Assembly: GCA_903885795.1 (NCBI GenBank)
Contig: CAISJV010000032.1
Coordinates: 1 to 64,000 of the forward strand
Direction: 5' to 3'
From: an uncultured delta proteobacterium
GTDB taxonomy: Bacteria > Desulfobacterota > Syntrophia > Syntrophales > UBA8958
Length of the DNA: 64,000 nucleotides
This document shows, piece after piece, positions 455 through 7,367 of this stretch (its first letter is position 1; every line of letters begins with the position of its first letter). The notes below the pieces were generated by a model, which saw only the letters and a list, made by a program, of their open reading frames with translations, had not been told where the DNA came from and ran no database searches. The translations under genes were made by a program, and so were the position numbers.

Positions 455-486
455 TTGACACAGATCGATTTTCAGTCCAATATAAT
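455..486 (+). promoter_or_regulatory. Candidate sigma-70 promoter of the acyl-CoA locus
   Basis: A perfect TTGACA (455-460) and a perfect TATAAT (481-486) lie 32-63 bases before the ATG at 518. The 20-base spacer is longer than the usual 16-18, so the promoter may be weak or need an activator. The TTG at 455 opens a longer in-frame version of the gene, but it belongs to the -35 box, which supports the later start. Confidence 0.4.
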
Positions 487-517
487 CCTCAAAATTAAAA
501 AAGGAGAAAATATCATC

Positions 518-1810
518 ATGGAGAATTGGAAAGAAATTTACAAAAGCAAGGTTGTCAGTGTTAAAGAAGCAGCGGCTATGGTCGGCTCCGGTGATAGAAT
601 CTGGTGTTCGCCCTGCGAAGGAGCTCCGTTTCAGCTCATGGAGGCGCTGGCGGACAGGAAGGACGAACTCCAGGATGTCAACGTTATCTCGGCGCTGGCC
701 CTTTATCCATTCAAGTTACTTCAGTCCCCTGAATATATCGGACGGATCAGCTACCATACCATATTCTACGGAGGCTACGAGCGGGCCTTCAAGAAGGCGG
801 GGAATGTAAGCGTCAATTCAGTCCATTTCTCTAAAGTTCATATTGCCCTAAAATCTTTTTACCGGGTCAACGTCCTCATGGCCGATGTATCTCTGCCCGA
901 TGAGGACGGATACCTCTATTACGGACCCATCGGCGCAGCGTGGAACGGCACGGCCGAAGAGATGGCAGAGAAGATCATCGTTCAGGTAAACAAACACCAA
1001 CCAAGAGTCGACGGGATGGAGCACCGTGTACACGTGAGCAAAGTGAGCTGCATTTGCGAACATGACCATCCCCTGCCCGCTTTAAAGCAAGACGCCCCAA
1101 CGGACATTGACAATAAAATTGCCGATTTTGTCGTGCCAGAGATCCCGGATGGCGCCACCATTCAGATTGGACTCGGCGCCCTCTCCAACGCCATCGGTTA
1201 CAAATTGGAGCAGAAGAAAAACCTGTCCGTCCACACGGAAATGTTCACAGACTCCATGATGGAACTGGTCAGGAAGGGGGTTATTAATGGCAAGATGGTG
1301 GCAGGTTTCGGTCTGGGCAGCGAGGAGCTTTATAACTTCATCGGTGAAGGTAAGGTAGAGTTGACGCCGATTCGCATTGTCAACGATCCTAGAACGGTTG
1401 CCAATGTCGACAAGATCATGTCCGTCAATGTGACGCTTATGGTGGACCTCACGGGCCAGGCCTGTTCCGAGTCCCTCGGCTTCATGCAATATAGCTCCAC
1501 GGGAGGCCAGGCGGATTTCGTCCGGGGCGCTGCCCTGTCGAAAGGTGGCAAGAGCTTCCTCTGCGTTCCCTCTACCGTGACATCTAAGGACGGCAAAGTA
1601 ACTTCAACGATCACGTCCGTTTTCCCCCCCGGCGCGGTGGTAACCACGACACGATCGGATATCATGTATGTTGTCACCGAGTACGGCATTGCCGATCTTT
1701 TCTGCAAACCCATCAGGGAGCGGGTAAAGGCTTTGATCGCTATTGCCCATCCGGACTTCCGTGAGCAATTGGGCAAGGAGGCCGTTGAACTGGGATTGAC
1801 GGGGACGTAA
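518..1810 (+). CDS. Acetyl-CoA hydrolase/CoA-transferase family protein (4-hydroxybutyrate/propionate CoA-transferase type)
   Basis: A 430-residue class I CoA-transferase that would move CoA between an acyl-CoA and a free carboxylic acid in the cytoplasm, activating a substrate acid without ATP. The catalytic Glu sits in the HTEMFTD motif (about residue 241), matching the AbfT/Cat2 family, and the usual C-terminal block TEYGIADLF is present. The ATG at 518 was chosen because AAAGGAG lies just upstream; an earlier in-frame TTG at 455 lies in the promoter. It is the first gene of the acyl-CoA locus, 42 bases before a crotonase. The exact acid cannot be read from the sequence; butyrate, propionate, acetate or a branched acid are all possible. 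Confidence 0.85.
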   Translation: MENWKEIYKSKVVSVKEAAAMVGSGDRIWCSPCEGAPFQLMEALADRKDELQDVNVISALALYPFKLLQSPEYIGRISYHTIFYGGYERAFKKAGNVSVNSVHFSKVHIALKSFYRVNVLMADVSLPDEDGYLYYGPIGAAWNGTAEEMAEKIIVQVNKHQPRVDGMEHRVHVSKVSCICEHDHPLPALKQDAPTDIDNKIADFVVPEIPDGATIQIGLGALSNAIGYKLEQKKNLSVHTEMFTDSMMELVRKGVINGKMVAGFGLGSEELYNFIGEGKVELTPIRIVNDPRTVANVDKIMSVNVTLMVDLTGQACSESLGFMQYSSTGGQADFVRGAALSKGGKSFLCVPSTVTSKDGKVTSTITSVFPPGAVVTTTRSDIMYVVTEYGIADLFCKPIRERVKALIAIAHPDFREQLGKEAVELGLTGT

Positions 1811-1852: not shown

Positions 1853-2641
1853 ATGACTTATGAAACTATTATCTTTGAAGTCAAAGAACAGGTTGCATAC
1901 ATTACCCTAAATCGGCCGGAAGCATTCAACGGATTGAATATTACCGTCGGCAAGGAACTCATGCACGCAGCGATTCACTGTGACGAGAACCCCGAAATCC
2001 GGGCCGTCGTTCTAACCGGCGCGGGTAAAGCCTTCAGCGCCGGGGGAGACCTGAAATTCTTTTCCGGATATGGGGATCAGCTTCCTGTCGTTCTTAAAGA
2101 AATGACGGTATATTGCCATGCCGCCGCTTCGCGCCTAATCAGGATGGAAAAACCTCTGATTACAGCTGTAAACGGAGCGGCAGCGGGAATGGGCATGAGC
2201 TTTGCCATTTCCGGCGATATAATCCTTGCCGCCGAGTCGGCATCGTTTACCGCAGCTTATACGGCAGCAGGACTCTCACCTGACGGAGCCATGACATATC
2301 TTTTGCCAAGGATGATCGGACTATCCAGAGCGCGGGAGATGATGATGACAAACCGGCGGTTGAAATCCCAGGATGCCCTTGAATGGGGTCTGGTCAACAA
2401 AGTGCTTCCCGATGCAGATCTTCTGAAAGAAGCCGAGTTGCTGGCGAAATCCTTCGCAAATGGACCGACACGTTCTTTCGGCATTGTAAAAAAACTCCTG
2501 AATGAAAGTTTTTCGGCCACCCTGGAGACGCAAATGGAACAGGAAGCCCGTGGCATTTGCGAAGCGGCGAGAACCGGCGATGGCATCGAGGGCGTTAAGG
2601 CATTTGTGGGGAAACGACGTCCCATATTCAAAGGTAATTAA
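1853..2641 (+). CDS. Enoyl-CoA hydratase/isomerase (crotonase family, PaaG-like)
   Basis: A 262-residue crotonase-fold protein acting on acyl-CoA thioesters in the cytoplasm. The two oxyanion-hole segments are visible: FSAGGDLKF near residue 65 and NGAAAGMGMSF near residue 108. The acidic pair of true hydratases is not obvious: the GLSPDGAMTYLLPR segment (about 140) carries an Asp as in PaaG-type isomerases rather than the second catalytic Glu of enoyl-CoA hydratase. It is therefore more likely an isomerase or other crotonase reaction than plain hydration; this is inference from motif positions. It lies between the CoA-transferase and a GNAT-like gene, probably in one transcript. Confidence 0.85.
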   Translation: MTYETIIFEVKEQVAYITLNRPEAFNGLNITVGKELMHAAIHCDENPEIRAVVLTGAGKAFSAGGDLKFFSGYGDQLPVVLKEMTVYCHAAASRLIRMEKPLITAVNGAAAGMGMSFAISGDIILAAESASFTAAYTAAGLSPDGAMTYLLPRMIGLSRAREMMMTNRRLKSQDALEWGLVNKVLPDADLLKEAELLAKSFANGPTRSFGIVKKLLNESFSATLETQMEQEARGICEAARTGDGIEGVKAFVGKRRPIFKGN

Positions 2642-2720
2642 ATCAACAAAATACTCCTTCGGGGGAATTCGTTGAATTCAGGATGAAGATGATACCTTTA
2701 GTGATGTGGGAAGATTTGCG

Positions 2721-3737
2721 ATGAACGAAAACATTGCGTCAGGTGCAAAGGTGCAAGAAATTGAGATCGATTTTTTCCGCTCGGAAGACGCACCGGGAAT
2801 TGCCCGGCTTTTTCGCCAGGTTTATGGGAAAGGTTATCCCATCAACATCTATTACTCCCCCAAGCGGCTGATCGAGGAGAACGCTGTCGGCCGCGTCCTG
2901 TCCTCCGTGGCCCGCACACATACCGGTGAGGTTGTAGGCCATGATGCCCTCGTTCTCCTGGACCCCGTAACCCGGCTCTACGAAAATGCCGCGGGAGCGG
3001 TTCTGCCTAGATTTCGCGGGCAGGGTGTATTCTTCCATCTTATGAAGCACAACGTCTTCGACTATGCAAAGCGTTTCGGTCTGCAGGAGATACTCGGCGA
3101 GCCCGTCTGCAACCACCTCCAGCTACAGAAGATGTGTCTTCAGCTTGGCTATCGGGAAACCGGGCTGGAAGTGGATCTAATGCCGGCAGCAGCCTATACC
3201 AAGGAGCAGAGTGCACACGGTAGGGTTTCTGTGTTACTGGGATATTTCCTTCATAAACCCATGCCGCAAACCGTTTTTCTGCCGCCGGTCTATCGAGATG
3301 AGCTGGAATACCTGTACGCCGGTATGGGGGTCGAGCGCACTTTTGCGGGAACGAAGGAAGACTTGTCGGCAAGGGAAGACAGCCAGGGGAAAATGGATGT
3401 ATTCACCTCTGCACAAGTTGCACGGATGTCAATTCATCAGATCGGATCGGATTTTGATTCATTTATCTCGCAACTGGAAAACGAGGCATGTGAAAGAGGT
3501 GTGGAGATCTTCCAAGTATGGCTGCCACTCACCTCGCCATTCGCCACTGCGGCGACGGAAATCCTGCGCATACACGGCTATTTTATCGGTGGCCTGCTGC
3601 CAAACAGGTTCGGTGGAGATGGTTTGCTGATGCAGAAGGTTAAATGCGAAACAGACTGGGGGAGCATTGCTCTTCATTCTGAACGTGCAAAGAGGATTGC
3701 AGACATTGTCAGAAGCGATCAGAAAAAAATGAAATGA
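2721..3737 (+). CDS. GNAT-family acetyltransferase-like protein
   Basis: About 338 residues. The N-terminal half carries a GNAT fold signature: RSEDAPGIARLFRQVYG at the start and the acetyl-CoA pyrophosphate-loop-like LPRFRGQGVFFHLM near residue 95. The C-terminal half is less clear and may be a second, degenerate GNAT domain. The ATG at 2721 is preferred over 2706 because GGGAAG precedes it. The acceptor is unknown. Its place inside an acyl-CoA operon suggests either protein acylation control or an acyl-CoA-handling role; both are inference. Confidence 0.6.
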   Translation: MNENIASGAKVQEIEIDFFRSEDAPGIARLFRQVYGKGYPINIYYSPKRLIEENAVGRVLSSVARTHTGEVVGHDALVLLDPVTRLYENAAGAVLPRFRGQGVFFHLMKHNVFDYAKRFGLQEILGEPVCNHLQLQKMCLQLGYRETGLEVDLMPAAAYTKEQSAHGRVSVLLGYFLHKPMPQTVFLPPVYRDELEYLYAGMGVERTFAGTKEDLSAREDSQGKMDVFTSAQVARMSIHQIGSDFDSFISQLENEACERGVEIFQVWLPLTSPFATAATEILRIHGYFIGGLLPNRFGGDGLLMQKVKCETDWGSIALHSERAKRIADIVRSDQKKMK

Positions 3738-4046: not shown

Positions 4047-5222
4047 GTGAAACCACAGGATCGCATCATCACATTTCAGGATAAACTAATCGAAGAAAAC
4101 CTGGATGTCGCCCTGCTCATGTATTCCCGTAATATCCTCTATTACACAGGTACGGCGCAGCCGTCCTATCTGGCCGTACAACCTGAGAATTTTCGGCTTT
4201 TCGTGAGAAGCGGCCTTGACTTTGCCCTTCAGGAAGTCTTCATCGATAGAGGAAAAATCGAGGAAGATCGCCGCCTGGATAACATCAGTAAAAAGCTATT
4301 CTCCGACAAGAAAAGCGGACCTCAGCAGATTGGAGCTGAATTGGATGTTTGGACCGTCGAGCAATTCGAACATTTCCGGAGGGCTTTTCCCGGTGTTGAT
4401 TTCGTCAATATCTCACCCTTCATTCTGGAACAGAGAAAAACCAAAGATTCCTCAGAAATCGACAAGATCAGGAAAGCATGCGAAGCGATCCACAAGGGAC
4501 ACGAGGCGGTACTGACGACGTTGCAGGAAGGCATTGCGGAACTGGAACTGGCAGCAGCGGTGGAAAACGCCCACCGCCTGGCCGGCCATGAAGGCATCTT
4601 CTTCATCCGGCAGCCGGATTTCTTCATGAGCCGTGGGCCCATTGCCTCCGGCCCTAACCTGCTTCGAAACAGCGGTGTCGTTTACACCATCACGGGCGTG
4701 GGACTCAGTCCCGCCGTCCCGGCCGGACCATCCCGGAGAAAAATCGAACGGGGAGACATCGTCATAGTAGATATTCCCACCCTGGTGGACGGCTATCACG
4801 CCGACCAAACAAGGACTTATTGCCTTGGCCAAGCCGCCAAACCGGCCAAGTCCATGTATGACGACCTGAAAACCATCGCGGATCATCTGATCAAACAGAT
4901 CAAACCGGGGATGAAATGCAGCGATATCTACCGGATGGCTTTGGAAAAAGCAACAGCGTTGGGGCGGGAAAAACAATTCCAGAGTTTCGGCAAGGGAAAG
5001 ATCTCACGCCTTATCGGCCACGGCATCGGTCTGGAACTGAATGAACCGCCCATTCCCTCTGAGTATGACCATTCCCCGGTGAAGGAAAACTTCGTGATCG
5101 CCCTGGACCTGCATATGCTGGATGAGGCACTGGGCGTCGTCAAGCTGGAAGACATGATCCTCATCGGAAAGGACGGCAACGAGATCATGACGAAAAGTCC
5201 ACGTGAACTCTTTGAGATTTAA
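4047..5222 (+). CDS. M24-family metallopeptidase-like protein (Xaa-Pro aminopeptidase/creatinase fold)
   Basis: A 391-residue pita-bread-fold protein with an N-terminal creatinase-type domain (about 1-135) and a C-terminal M24 domain. Metal-site residues are readable: VDIPTLVDGYHADQTRT gives the two Asp, IGHGIGLELNEPP the His, and VVKLEDMIL the last Glu. The first of the two Glu ligands, normally in an I-E-P-G context, reads ALDLHMLDE, so an Asp is at or near that site. GTG start with CGGAGGTGA upstream. It lies 30 bases before the mutase large subunit and probably shares its transcript. A peptidase in such an operon is unexpected; it may act on a small amide or ester rather than a peptide. 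Confidence 0.75.
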   Translation: MKPQDRIITFQDKLIEENLDVALLMYSRNILYYTGTAQPSYLAVQPENFRLFVRSGLDFALQEVFIDRGKIEEDRRLDNISKKLFSDKKSGPQQIGAELDVWTVEQFEHFRRAFPGVDFVNISPFILEQRKTKDSSEIDKIRKACEAIHKGHEAVLTTLQEGIAELELAAAVENAHRLAGHEGIFFIRQPDFFMSRGPIASGPNLLRNSGVVYTITGVGLSPAVPAGPSRRKIERGDIVIVDIPTLVDGYHADQTRTYCLGQAAKPAKSMYDDLKTIADHLIKQIKPGMKCSDIYRMALEKATALGREKQFQSFGKGKISRLIGHGIGLELNEPPIPSEYDHSPVKENFVIALDLHMLDEALGVVKLEDMILIGKDGNEIMTKSPRELFEI

Positions 5223-5252: not shown

Positions 5253-6938
5253 GTGACGGCCGCTCTATTTAATAAAAATGAAGTGGGAAAAATCGGGAAA
5301 GCAGGTTCGACGTGGAGAGACGAAGTTTATTCCTGCCATAAGGAGATCAAGGAGAAATATGAGACCTTATCAGGTTTTGAAGTGAAGCCTCTTTATACAC
5401 CAAAAGATCTTGACAGCTTGGATTACCTTCGTGATCTCGGTTTTCCGGGAGAGGAGCCGTATGTACGAGGGGTCCATCCGACAATGTACAGAGGCCGTAC
5501 CTGGACACACCGGCAATTGGCCGGCTTCGGGCCTCCGGAAGAAACGAACAAACGGTATAAGTTCCTCCTCCACCAGGGTGCAACAGGGATAAACGGTGTC
5601 TTCGATTACCCGACCTTGCGGGGCTACGACAGCGATGACCCAGATGTTTATGCTGATGTAGGGCGTGGAGGCGTCTCAATAGATTCTATTGAAGATATGC
5701 GCATCCTCTTCGAGGGAATTCCCATTGATGAAGTCAGTGTTTCTCTCGTAACATGTCAGCCCATCTGCAACATATCGGTTCAGTCCATGTATTTTGCCAA
5801 TGCCCAGAACAGAGGAGTGCCGCTGAATAAACTGGCGGGAACAAGCCAGAATGATTTTCTGATGGAAACCGCTATCACTATCGCGCCCGGTGTTACACCG
5901 CCGAAGGTCTCCTTCAGGTTGAGTTGCGACGCCATTGAATTCTGCACAAAATACGCACCGCGATGGAATCCCATCAGCTACTCGGGATACAACTACCGCG
6001 AGGCAGGATGCACGGCCCCACAGGAAGTAGCATTTATGATTGCCAACGCCGTTGCCTGCTCGGAGGAGTTGATCAGGCGGGGGTACGATATTGACGTCTT
6101 TGCGCCGAGACTGAGCTTTTTCCTTTCCGCTCATAACGACTTCTTTGAGGAAATAGCAAAGTATCGTGCGGCGCGGCGGATCTACTGCAAAATCATGAAG
6201 GAGCGCTTCGCCCCGAAAGATCCCCGCTCACTGATGTTCAGGTTTCACGTCCAGACAGCGGGAGTAGCACTGACAGCCCAGCAGCCCCTGAACAACATCG
6301 CCCGCGCCTCGTATCATGCCCTCGCGGCAGTTCTGGGCGGCGCGCAGTCCGTCCATGTCGACGCTTATGATGAAGCACTGTGCGTGCCGACAGAACTGTC
6401 CTCTCTCACGGCCTTGAGGACACAGCAGATCCTGCAGTCTGAGACCGGCGTGACCAACGTGGTTGATCCCTTAGGAGGCTCCTATTTTCTGGAATCCCTG
6501 ACCAATCAAATGGAAGAAAACATCGGTAGCATCCTGGCTGAAATTGATTCGATGGGAGGCATCGTCAAAACCGTGGAGAAAGGGTGGATTCATGATGAAA
6601 TATCGGCGGCCGCATATCAATATCAAATGAGGGTCGAGTCAGGAGAAATGCCCATTGTCGGCGTAAACTGTTTTCAGATCGAGAATGAAAAGCTTCCAAT
6701 CGAACTTTTTCGCCTGCCGGAGACGCTTAAAATACAGAAAGCGAAACTCGAAAGAATCAAAAAAAAGAGGAATCCAGTGCAAGTGCAGAAGGCGTTAGAT
6801 GCGGTTACCCGCGGATGTGAAGAGGGACGAAACCTCATGGAACTGCTCGTGGAGGGAGTAAGGGTTCATTTGACGGAAGGAGAGGTGTCACAAGCGTTGA
6901 GAAAAGTTTACGGGGTTTGGAATCCTCCCCTATTTTAA
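5253..6938 (+). CDS. B12-dependent acyl-CoA mutase, large (substrate-binding) subunit, atypical active site
   Basis: A 561-residue TIM-barrel subunit of the methylmalonyl-CoA mutase superfamily, with the length and split form of isobutyryl-CoA (IcmA) and 2-hydroxyisobutyryl-CoA (HcmA) mutases. Conserved landmarks include YRGRTWTHRQLAGFG, TLRGYDSDDPD, FAPRLSFF and VDPLGGSYFLE. The substrate-setting residues differ from the known enzymes I could recall and align: Leu89 where MCM has Tyr89, ICM Phe80 and HCM Ile90; Val116 where HCM has Asp117; a Thr/Ile stretch (about 208-210) where MCM has Arg207 and ICM/HCM Gln; and Asn247 where MCM has the catalytic His244 (SGYN instead of SGYH). GTG start with AAGGAGG 5-10 bases upstream. 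The small subunit follows after 30 bases. The substrate is unknown and probably uncharged and bulky. Confidence 0.9.
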   Translation: MTAALFNKNEVGKIGKAGSTWRDEVYSCHKEIKEKYETLSGFEVKPLYTPKDLDSLDYLRDLGFPGEEPYVRGVHPTMYRGRTWTHRQLAGFGPPEETNKRYKFLLHQGATGINGVFDYPTLRGYDSDDPDVYADVGRGGVSIDSIEDMRILFEGIPIDEVSVSLVTCQPICNISVQSMYFANAQNRGVPLNKLAGTSQNDFLMETAITIAPGVTPPKVSFRLSCDAIEFCTKYAPRWNPISYSGYNYREAGCTAPQEVAFMIANAVACSEELIRRGYDIDVFAPRLSFFLSAHNDFFEEIAKYRAARRIYCKIMKERFAPKDPRSLMFRFHVQTAGVALTAQQPLNNIARASYHALAAVLGGAQSVHVDAYDEALCVPTELSSLTALRTQQILQSETGVTNVVDPLGGSYFLESLTNQMEENIGSILAEIDSMGGIVKTVEKGWIHDEISAAAYQYQMRVESGEMPIVGVNCFQIENEKLPIELFRLPETLKIQKAKLERIKKKRNPVQVQKALDAVTRGCEEGRNLMELLVEGVRVHLTEGEVSQALRKVYGVWNPPLF

Positions 6939-6968
6939 AGTGACTAAAACTTGAAAGGCGAGTAAATA

Positions 6969-7367
6969 ATGCAAAGAAAAATTCGCATACTCATGGCCCG
7001 TCTGGGGATGGATGCCCACTGGCGGGGAAGCATCATCGTCGCACGCGCTCTTCGCGATGCAGGGATAGAAGTTATTTATGTCGGTAACCAGATGCCGTCG
7101 AACATTGTAAAGATGGCAATGCAGGAAGATGTCGATTTCATCGGTCTGAGTTCTCTATCCGGGAACCACCTCATTCTCGCTCCCAAGGTCATCAAACTGC
7201 TGCAAAAGGAGAATTCCGGCGACATAAAGGTAATCTTCGGCGGAACCGTGGCTCCCAAAGACATTCCAGTGCTGAAAAAGGCAGGCATCGCCGAAGTTTT
7301 TGGTCCCGGGACCCCCCTGAAAAAGATCGTCGAATATATATCCGCGGCAGCGACGGATCTAAAATAG
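6969..7367 (+). CDS. B12-dependent acyl-CoA mutase, small cobalamin-binding subunit
   Basis: A 132-residue Rossmann-like B12-binding domain that completes the mutase encoded just upstream (compare HcmB/IcmB, about 136 residues). The cobalamin-ligand motif DxHxxG appears as MDAHWRGS (residues 14-21), followed by GLSSLSGNH and IFGGTVAP, which line the nucleotide tail. Two bases of the usual motif differ: Arg stands where MCM has Lys604 (ARLG for AKMG), and Trp follows the ligand His where Asp is common. The ligand His and its Asp partner are kept, so base-off/His-on cobalamin binding is expected. No MeaB/ArgK chaperone gene is visible nearby. Confidence 0.9.
   Translation: MQRKIRILMARLGMDAHWRGSIIVARALRDAGIEVIYVGNQMPSNIVKMAMQEDVDFIGLSSLSGNHLILAPKVIKLLQKENSGDIKVIFGGTVAPKDIPVLKKAGIAEVFGPGTPLKKIVEYISAAATDLK

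Follow-up and report, generated by a model that had tools for sequence, protein, structure and literature searches.

A pair of adjacent genes on contig C32 of an uncultured delta proteobacterium (genome of 4.0 Mb in 95 contigs) raises the question of which acyl-CoA is rearranged by a mutase whose substrate pocket departs from those of known B12-dependent enzymes. The window analysed here is the first 64 kb of this contig. The large subunit (5253..6938, forward strand, 561 amino acids) carries the TIM-barrel substrate domain, and the small subunit (6969..7367, forward strand, 132 amino acids) is the B12-binding chain. Both open reading frames are uninterrupted, and an AGGAGG box (Shine-Dalgarno) precedes the GTG start at 5253. 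The large subunit matched PF01642 with 615.2 bits (cut-off 22.1) and the small subunit matched PF02310 with 71.7 bits. With its PF01642 large domain, DxHxxG B12 subunit and mutase TIM-barrel fold, the gene pair belongs to the mutase family. An AF2 model of the large subunit built from 35 aligned sequences (pLDDT 88.6, pTM 0.91) had HCM as its best structural match (4r3u; Z 50.5, rmsd 1.8, 547 residues, 42% identity), followed by MCM (catalytic chains, Z 39.8-49.5) and IcmF (Z 25.7-41.6).

Residues were read from the PDB alignment and from a MAFFT alignment, from which HSPs that spanned <400 residues, contained stops or were identical had been dropped. The MCM and HCM numbers used here are what we take to be the published ones; they match the counts in the alignment, our own counts being one low for 1req and eleven high for 4r3u (tag). 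Because the query aligned with MCM and HCM ungapped around positions 89, 116 and 247 in the PDB alignment, these residues are not shifted. Leu89 (codon 5517..5519, computed as 5253+3x88) occupies the place of MCM Tyr89 and HCM Ile90, Val116 (5598..5600) that of HCM Asp117 and an MCM Ala, and Asn247 (5991..5993) that of the catalytic His (MCM His244, HCM His245), inside the ungapped block GY(N/H)xxEAG. Residues 202-215 (5856..5897) form a loop in place of the Arg207/Gln208 segment; it reads QND-FLMETAITIAPGV where MCM has QND-ILKEFMVRNTYIY, is one residue longer and has neither Arg nor Gln at the Arg207/Gln208 place. All these coordinates, like that of Asn114 (5592..5594) at the place of MCM Ser114, are computed and refer to the forward strand. 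The original prediction of a B12 acyl-CoA mutase with a re-shaped pocket had named Leu89, for the Tyr, Phe or Ile of other mutases, together with Val116, the changed segment and Asn247. All four replacements were confirmed, and the carboxylate-binding Arg is absent. Asn114 was missing from its residue list. In the AF2 model, Leu89 lies in the predicted strand 85-90, Val116 in 112-117, and Asn247 directly after the predicted strand 238-244. Compared with the known mutases, Tyr/Phe89, Arg207/Gln208, Ser114 and His244 were lost, and the barrel residues Met78, Arg82, Thr85, Arg87, Thr197, Gln199, Tyr246, Phe290 and Gln334 were retained.

The same residues recur well beyond this genome. Two peptide patterns that did not contain position 247, applied to the contigs of named records, returned 50 loci; 40 were deltaproteobacterial, all of them MAGs, and the four records not titled as MAGs were actinomycetes. 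Asn247 was found in 47 of the 48 readable loci (in two further loci the sequence ends ahead of this position), the exception being Ala in L070. Leu89 was present in all 47 readable loci that cover it, and Asn114 in 45 of 48, the remaining three comprising a Ser, a masked residue and a locus without coverage. A second scan of 395 genomes of the phylum used a DNA pattern for QNDF..(M/L)ET, again without position 247, and gave 15 places in 13 genomes, the source genome included, against 0 for the reversed control pattern. Asn247 was encoded at all 15 places, two of which are the genome's own copies and some of which probably belong to the same organisms as in the 50-locus scan; Ile replaced Leu at 89 in two places (L168 and L169). 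Given this conservation, Asn247 can be neither a sequencing error nor a private mutation. Judged from these scans, the Asn-type clade is rare and patchy, yet fixed for Asn.

When the inner columns of 38 Asn-type and 23 His-type sequences were compared with thresholds of 95% and 80% for a clean switch, only two columns passed, namely 247 (Asn in 38/38 versus His in 23/23) and 114 (Asn in 37/38 versus Ser in 23/23). Three further columns were nearly clean. MCM Lys202, kept in 23/23 His-type rows, was Met or Leu in 38/38 Asn-type rows; Phe/Tyr204 was Thr in 38/38, one His-type row having Asp; and Asn168, kept in 22/23 His-type rows, was Cys, Ser or His in 38/38. Leu89 occurred in all 38 Asn-type rows and also in 6 of the 23 His-type rows, including mutase B (described below), and Val116 in 32 of 38.

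Two deviating members were observed in addition. A single in-frame TAG interrupts the Asn-type gene at L060:6435-6437, where the relative L092 has GAG, so that the TAG is probably an assembly or sequencing error. The Ala-bearing L070 (558-2165) shares its MAG with L049 as a second copy; it reads RFNVQT for RFHVQT and is a diverged paralog of the Asn-type clade.

Two trees placed the window mutase. In the quick tree (91 rows, 3 of 94 having been dropped as one duplicate and two partial sequences), the node uniting the Asn rows with L070 had an SH-aLRT of 94, and the Asn rows need two changes because L070 falls inside them. For the careful tree of 61 rows, columns 87-91, 114-117, 202-215 and 245-249 were removed. 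Seven rows were left out (the duplicate L004, the partial L091 and L089, the long-branch L095, L096 and L099, and L070), as were a further 27, made up of near-copies and all six Asp-type rows, and one IcmF row was added. The 38 Asn rows were separated from the 23 His rows by a branch supported at 100/100, a value that holds for Asn versus His rows only, because the Asp-type rows had been left out. The His rows include HCM 4r3u, MCM 1req, an annotated IcmF on a long branch and the genome's own ICM-like enzyme. The references thus comprise HCM, MCM, IcmF and ICM-like enzymes, and relative to them the window mutase fell outside the MCM, HCM and IcmF branches even with the trait columns removed, in line with the original prediction. 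A grouping with pivalyl-CoA, ethylmalonyl-CoA or benzylmalonyl-CoA mutases would be compatible with this placement. Drift or a pseudogene was ruled out by the clade support together with the near-fixed Asn247.

Clade members in the tree come from Desulfobacterota, a Rokubacterium and Actinomycetota (Microbispora, Umezawaea, Lentzea and actinobacterial MAGs), and the nearest named relatives of the window mutase are from Syntrophaceae MAGs. A Chloroflexi row (L089) also has Asn; it is partial and stands outside the tree. Most members come from uncultured organisms; the named strains among them are Umezawaea tangerina DSM 44720, Lentzea sp. NBRC 105346 and Microbispora amethystogenes NBRC 101907. 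No description of a His244-to-Asn mutase clade was found in searches of an open-licence literature library.

Genomes of the same order contain up to 14 matches to the window mutase each. In one of them (G020), three mutases (L107:7722-9422, L108:4818-6497 and L110:5159-6838) have Asn, Asp and Tyr, respectively, at the His244 place, all in uncertain alignments. The first of these (41% identity) aligns Asn in the 247 column, lacks the QNDF segment and is in no tree; because of it, Asn may have had a second origin. The mutases of these order-mates would represent an uncharted radiation of B12 mutases, and the Asp-type and other His-less relatives show that the His244 position can change in more than one way.

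The small subunit changed as well. In the window, the axial-ligand loop reads D15-A-H17-W-R-G20 (DAHWRG, residues 15-20), and its D, H and G were invariant in all 17 sequences of a first alignment, 14 of which were Asn-type subunits picked by hand. A fuller reading took, in each of the 50 loci, the small subunit directly following the Asn-type gene; it recovered 43, with 7 loci having none in reach. D(A/S/I)HWRG was present in 42 of the 43, the exception being HWTG in L070, and Trp adjoined the axial His in all 43. The 15 readable other small subunits of the same loci all had DGHDRG, as did the nearest PDB relatives of the small subunit. The expectation that the other B12 landmarks are kept therefore stood for the D, H and G of DxHxxG and failed for the loop itself, which is HWRG and not HDRG in 42 of 43. 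Likewise, the proposed Arg for Lys604 is present in the window subunit (Arg11, in MARLGMDAH), but its use as a functional marker was not supported; across the 43 clade subunits this place was Arg in 33 and Lys in 10, and Lys604Arg was discarded as a mark of the clade. Taken with the large-subunit switches, the loop shows that two protein chains changed together, near the substrate and near the cobalt.

The mutase genes close a forward run of six genes. Upstream lie a CoA-transferase of the 4-hydroxybutyrate/butyryl-CoA:acetate type (455..1810; PF13336, match to 3eh7 with E 1e-87), an enoyl-CoA hydratase/isomerase family protein (1853..2641; PF00378), a 343-amino-acid protein (2706..3737) without a match in either Pfam (E 1e-4) or NCBIfam (E 1e-5), and an M24 protein of the prolidase/creatinase fold (4047..5222; PF00557 and PF01321), in which Asp is aligned to one metal-ligand Glu of prolidase. 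The M24 gene is preceded by a gap of 309 bases; 30 bases separate its end from the mutase start and another 30 separate the two mutase genes, and M24 and the mutase pair are likely to share a transcript. MeaB is absent from the window operon. The genome holds only three PF01642 mutases. Two are of the Asn type, one in the window and one on contig C55, 94% identical and in different gene settings. The third (L001) is ICM-like, keeps Phe, Gln and His at the 89, 207 and 244 places, and adjoins the one strong MeaB match of the genome. The C55 copy has AtoS/AtoC-like genes upstream and glutaconate-type CoA-transferase subunits and an M24 gene downstream. The presence of two unrelated CoA-transferase families at the two copies suggests that a free acid is activated by CoA transfer. 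Because neighbours vary widely, this CoA-transferase/hydratase link rests mainly on one genome. Beyond the large and small subunit pair, none of the partner genes tested was present in most loci of the neighbour survey, which does not settle the substrate, and the assignment of function from neighbours was dropped.

One arrangement recurred in deltaproteobacterial MAGs. A divergent TetR gene, mutase A (large and small subunits), MeaB, mutase B (large and small subunits) and the Asn mutase (large and small subunits) followed each other in L047, L049 and L063, and L085 and L086 show the same three-mutase order as far as their contigs extend. Mutase B directly before the Asn mutase was found in 8 of the 50 loci (these five plus L052, L064 and L087), and mutase A in 6 of 50 (these five plus L069). 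At the His244 place, all 6 mutase A rows have Asp and all 8 mutase B rows have His. The mutase A proteins (for example, L047:4765-6456) also carry N(M/L)YDLREQG and an unusual QNDP(I/V)HFRYCGFRPA segment in 6/6 rows and form one clade. L052 additionally encodes biotin-carboxylase and carboxyltransferase genes, a thiolase, a BadI/MenB-like crotonase and, judged from the start sequence alone, a 3-hydroxyacyl-CoA dehydrogenase. The L063 contig encodes an HMG-CoA-synthase-like/OB protein, a thiolase, a PrpD-family gene and, again by start sequences only, TRAP transporter genes. These surroundings would fit a catabolic island for branched acids.

Two other neighbours were considered and set aside. 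M24 genes lie near both copies in the genome and in six named loci. The same M24 subfamily was found beside a 250-amino-acid crotonase or an ICM-like mutase-MeaB operon (L143-L160; the operon in L148, L154 and L156), in genomes without an Asn-type match, and M24 was therefore rejected as a dedicated partner. A second M24 of divergent sequence comes next in L148 and L154. On the Roseovarius plasmid pTHAF8_b (L095:1430-6552), M24, TetR, small and large mutase subunits and MeaB stand together, and the large subunit keeps His and has an odd Arg207 segment. Actinobacterial loci contain a short aminotransferase-fold protein (L082:9195-10013, L079:13085-14017, L088:3309-4190 and L084:323-913), assigned by Pfam scan in L082 and L079 and by similarity in L088 and L084. 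Its gene immediately precedes the Asn-type mutase in L082 and L084, and L079, L082 and L088 have a NAT-family gene nearby. Read by eye, the protein apparently lacks the PLP lysine, and a role for it was dropped.

The reading that we favour, and hold to be probable rather than secure, is that the pair forms a working AdoCbl-dependent acyl-CoA mutase of a clade for which no description was found, acting on an acyl-CoA that has no second carboxylate, is probably branched and is made by a CoA-transferase. AdoCbl homolysis, hydrogen abstraction and a 1,2-shift of the thioester group are established for MCM, ICM and HCM. By analogy, the small subunit would deliver AdoCbl, and substrate binding in the barrel would break the Co-C bond; the 5'-deoxyadenosyl radical would then abstract an acyl-chain hydrogen, and the thioester carbonyl group would shift to the adjacent carbon. 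His244 is regarded as the general acid and radical-protecting residue of the mutase family. Asn247 could keep a neutral hydrogen bond to the thioester carbonyl but, unlike the His, is unable to protonate it as well. Without proton donation, the reaction may be slower, the substrate may need no proton, or protection from oxygen may have been traded away. Actinomycetes are aerobes; because they include clade members, oxygen would not be the only reason for Asn. With Leu89, Val116 and neither Arg nor Gln, the pocket would suit an uncharged, probably branched acyl group. The loss of Arg207 and Tyr89 underlies the proposal of a probably uncharged substrate, and once Arg207/Gln and Tyr/Phe89 are missing, the pocket is unlikely to take a free carboxylate and likely to take an uncharged group that is bulkier or branched. 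The CoA-transferase would form the CoA ester, and the product would enter hydratase and beta-oxidation steps.

An alternative that we consider fairly unlikely is an enzyme of the isobutyryl-CoA, pivalyl-CoA or 2-methylbutyryl-CoA type with a drifted pocket, serving ordinary branched-chain fatty-acid metabolism of a syntroph. The many ICM-like mutases of the order-mates speak for it, as do the IcmF crystals with isovaleryl- and pivalyl-CoA (according to structure entry titles) and the AtoS/AtoC-like two-component genes upstream of the C55 copy and of the relatives L043, L073 and L075 (AtoC alone in L074); moreover, position 89 would have room for one more methyl group if its residue were smaller than Phe. 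However, an ICM-like enzyme that retains Phe, Gln and His is already encoded separately in the genome, and an Asn247 that is near-fixed and an Asn114 that is almost so across several phyla argue against drift. The pairing of two Asn at two pocket columns could instead mean that Asn114 and Asn247 are specificity residues, not stand-ins for His, which bind a polar acyl-CoA (hydroxy, amide or amino). The nearby M24 genes, whose fold includes amide or C-N hydrolases, and the aminotransferase-like gene adjoining copies in four actinobacterial loci would agree with such a substrate. Since M24 is no specific partner and the aminotransferase-like protein apparently has no lysine, we regard this as distinctly improbable.

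The missing catalytic His also brings to mind a protein that has lost mutase activity and serves in B12 sensing, as a scaffold or as a slow side enzyme. A structure has been solved for an H244A mutant of MCM (title of 1e1c), and MCM mutants of this type are slow. But both subunits are strongly conserved across phyla, the axial His and the barrel residues are kept, and the pair of large and small subunit genes is retained and even duplicated within the genome, which leaves loss of activity with very little probability. A working mutase is the preferred reading. More speculatively, and only as a tentative extension of it, Ser114Asn, His244Asn and HWRG together might define a new natural class of AdoCbl mutase that performs its rearrangement without a proton-donating His on a novel mutase substrate. 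In several deltaproteobacteria, its place in the three-mutase (Asp/His/Asn) operon could then reflect a pathway with several radical carbon-skeleton shifts, for example on multiply branched or quaternary-carbon acids. A natural clade without His244 in anaerobes and actinomycetes across phyla makes the role of this residue testable without engineered mutants, and because members occur in named strains, the enzyme is accessible in cultured hosts. The clade also points to an acyl-CoA rearrangement for which no assignment was found.

Among the known systems, HCM (HcmA/HcmB, 4r3u) shares separate large and small subunits, the fold, Q199, Y246 and the B12 ligand with the window mutase, whereas none of its Ile90, Asp117, Gln208 and His245 is found here: Leu, Val and Asn stand for Ile90, Asp117 and His245, Gln208 is absent, Asn replaces Ser at 114, and the small subunit has HWRG versus HDRG. 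MCM (1req and 4req) is alike in its barrel fold (Z 49.1-49.2), B12 DxH motif and the equivalents of Gln197 and Gln330. Unlike in MCM, the B12 domain here is a separate subunit, and Tyr89, Arg207, Ser114 and His244 are all replaced, Leu and the lack of Arg taking the place of the Tyr89 and Arg207 that serve a free carboxylate, and Asn that of His244. IcmF (4xc6 and 5cjt-5cjw) has the same fold (Z 41.0-41.6) at 30-31% identity and likewise no Arg at the 207 place; however, the annotated IcmF keeps Phe, Gln and His and a fused GTPase, and neither these three residues of IcmF/ICM nor the GTPase fusion of IcmF is present here. Mutase B (for example, L047:7924-9561), the upstream neighbour of the Asn mutase in eight loci, shares Leu at 89, but it retains His, a Gln-type 207 segment (YQAQK) and Ser114 and forms a separate clade.
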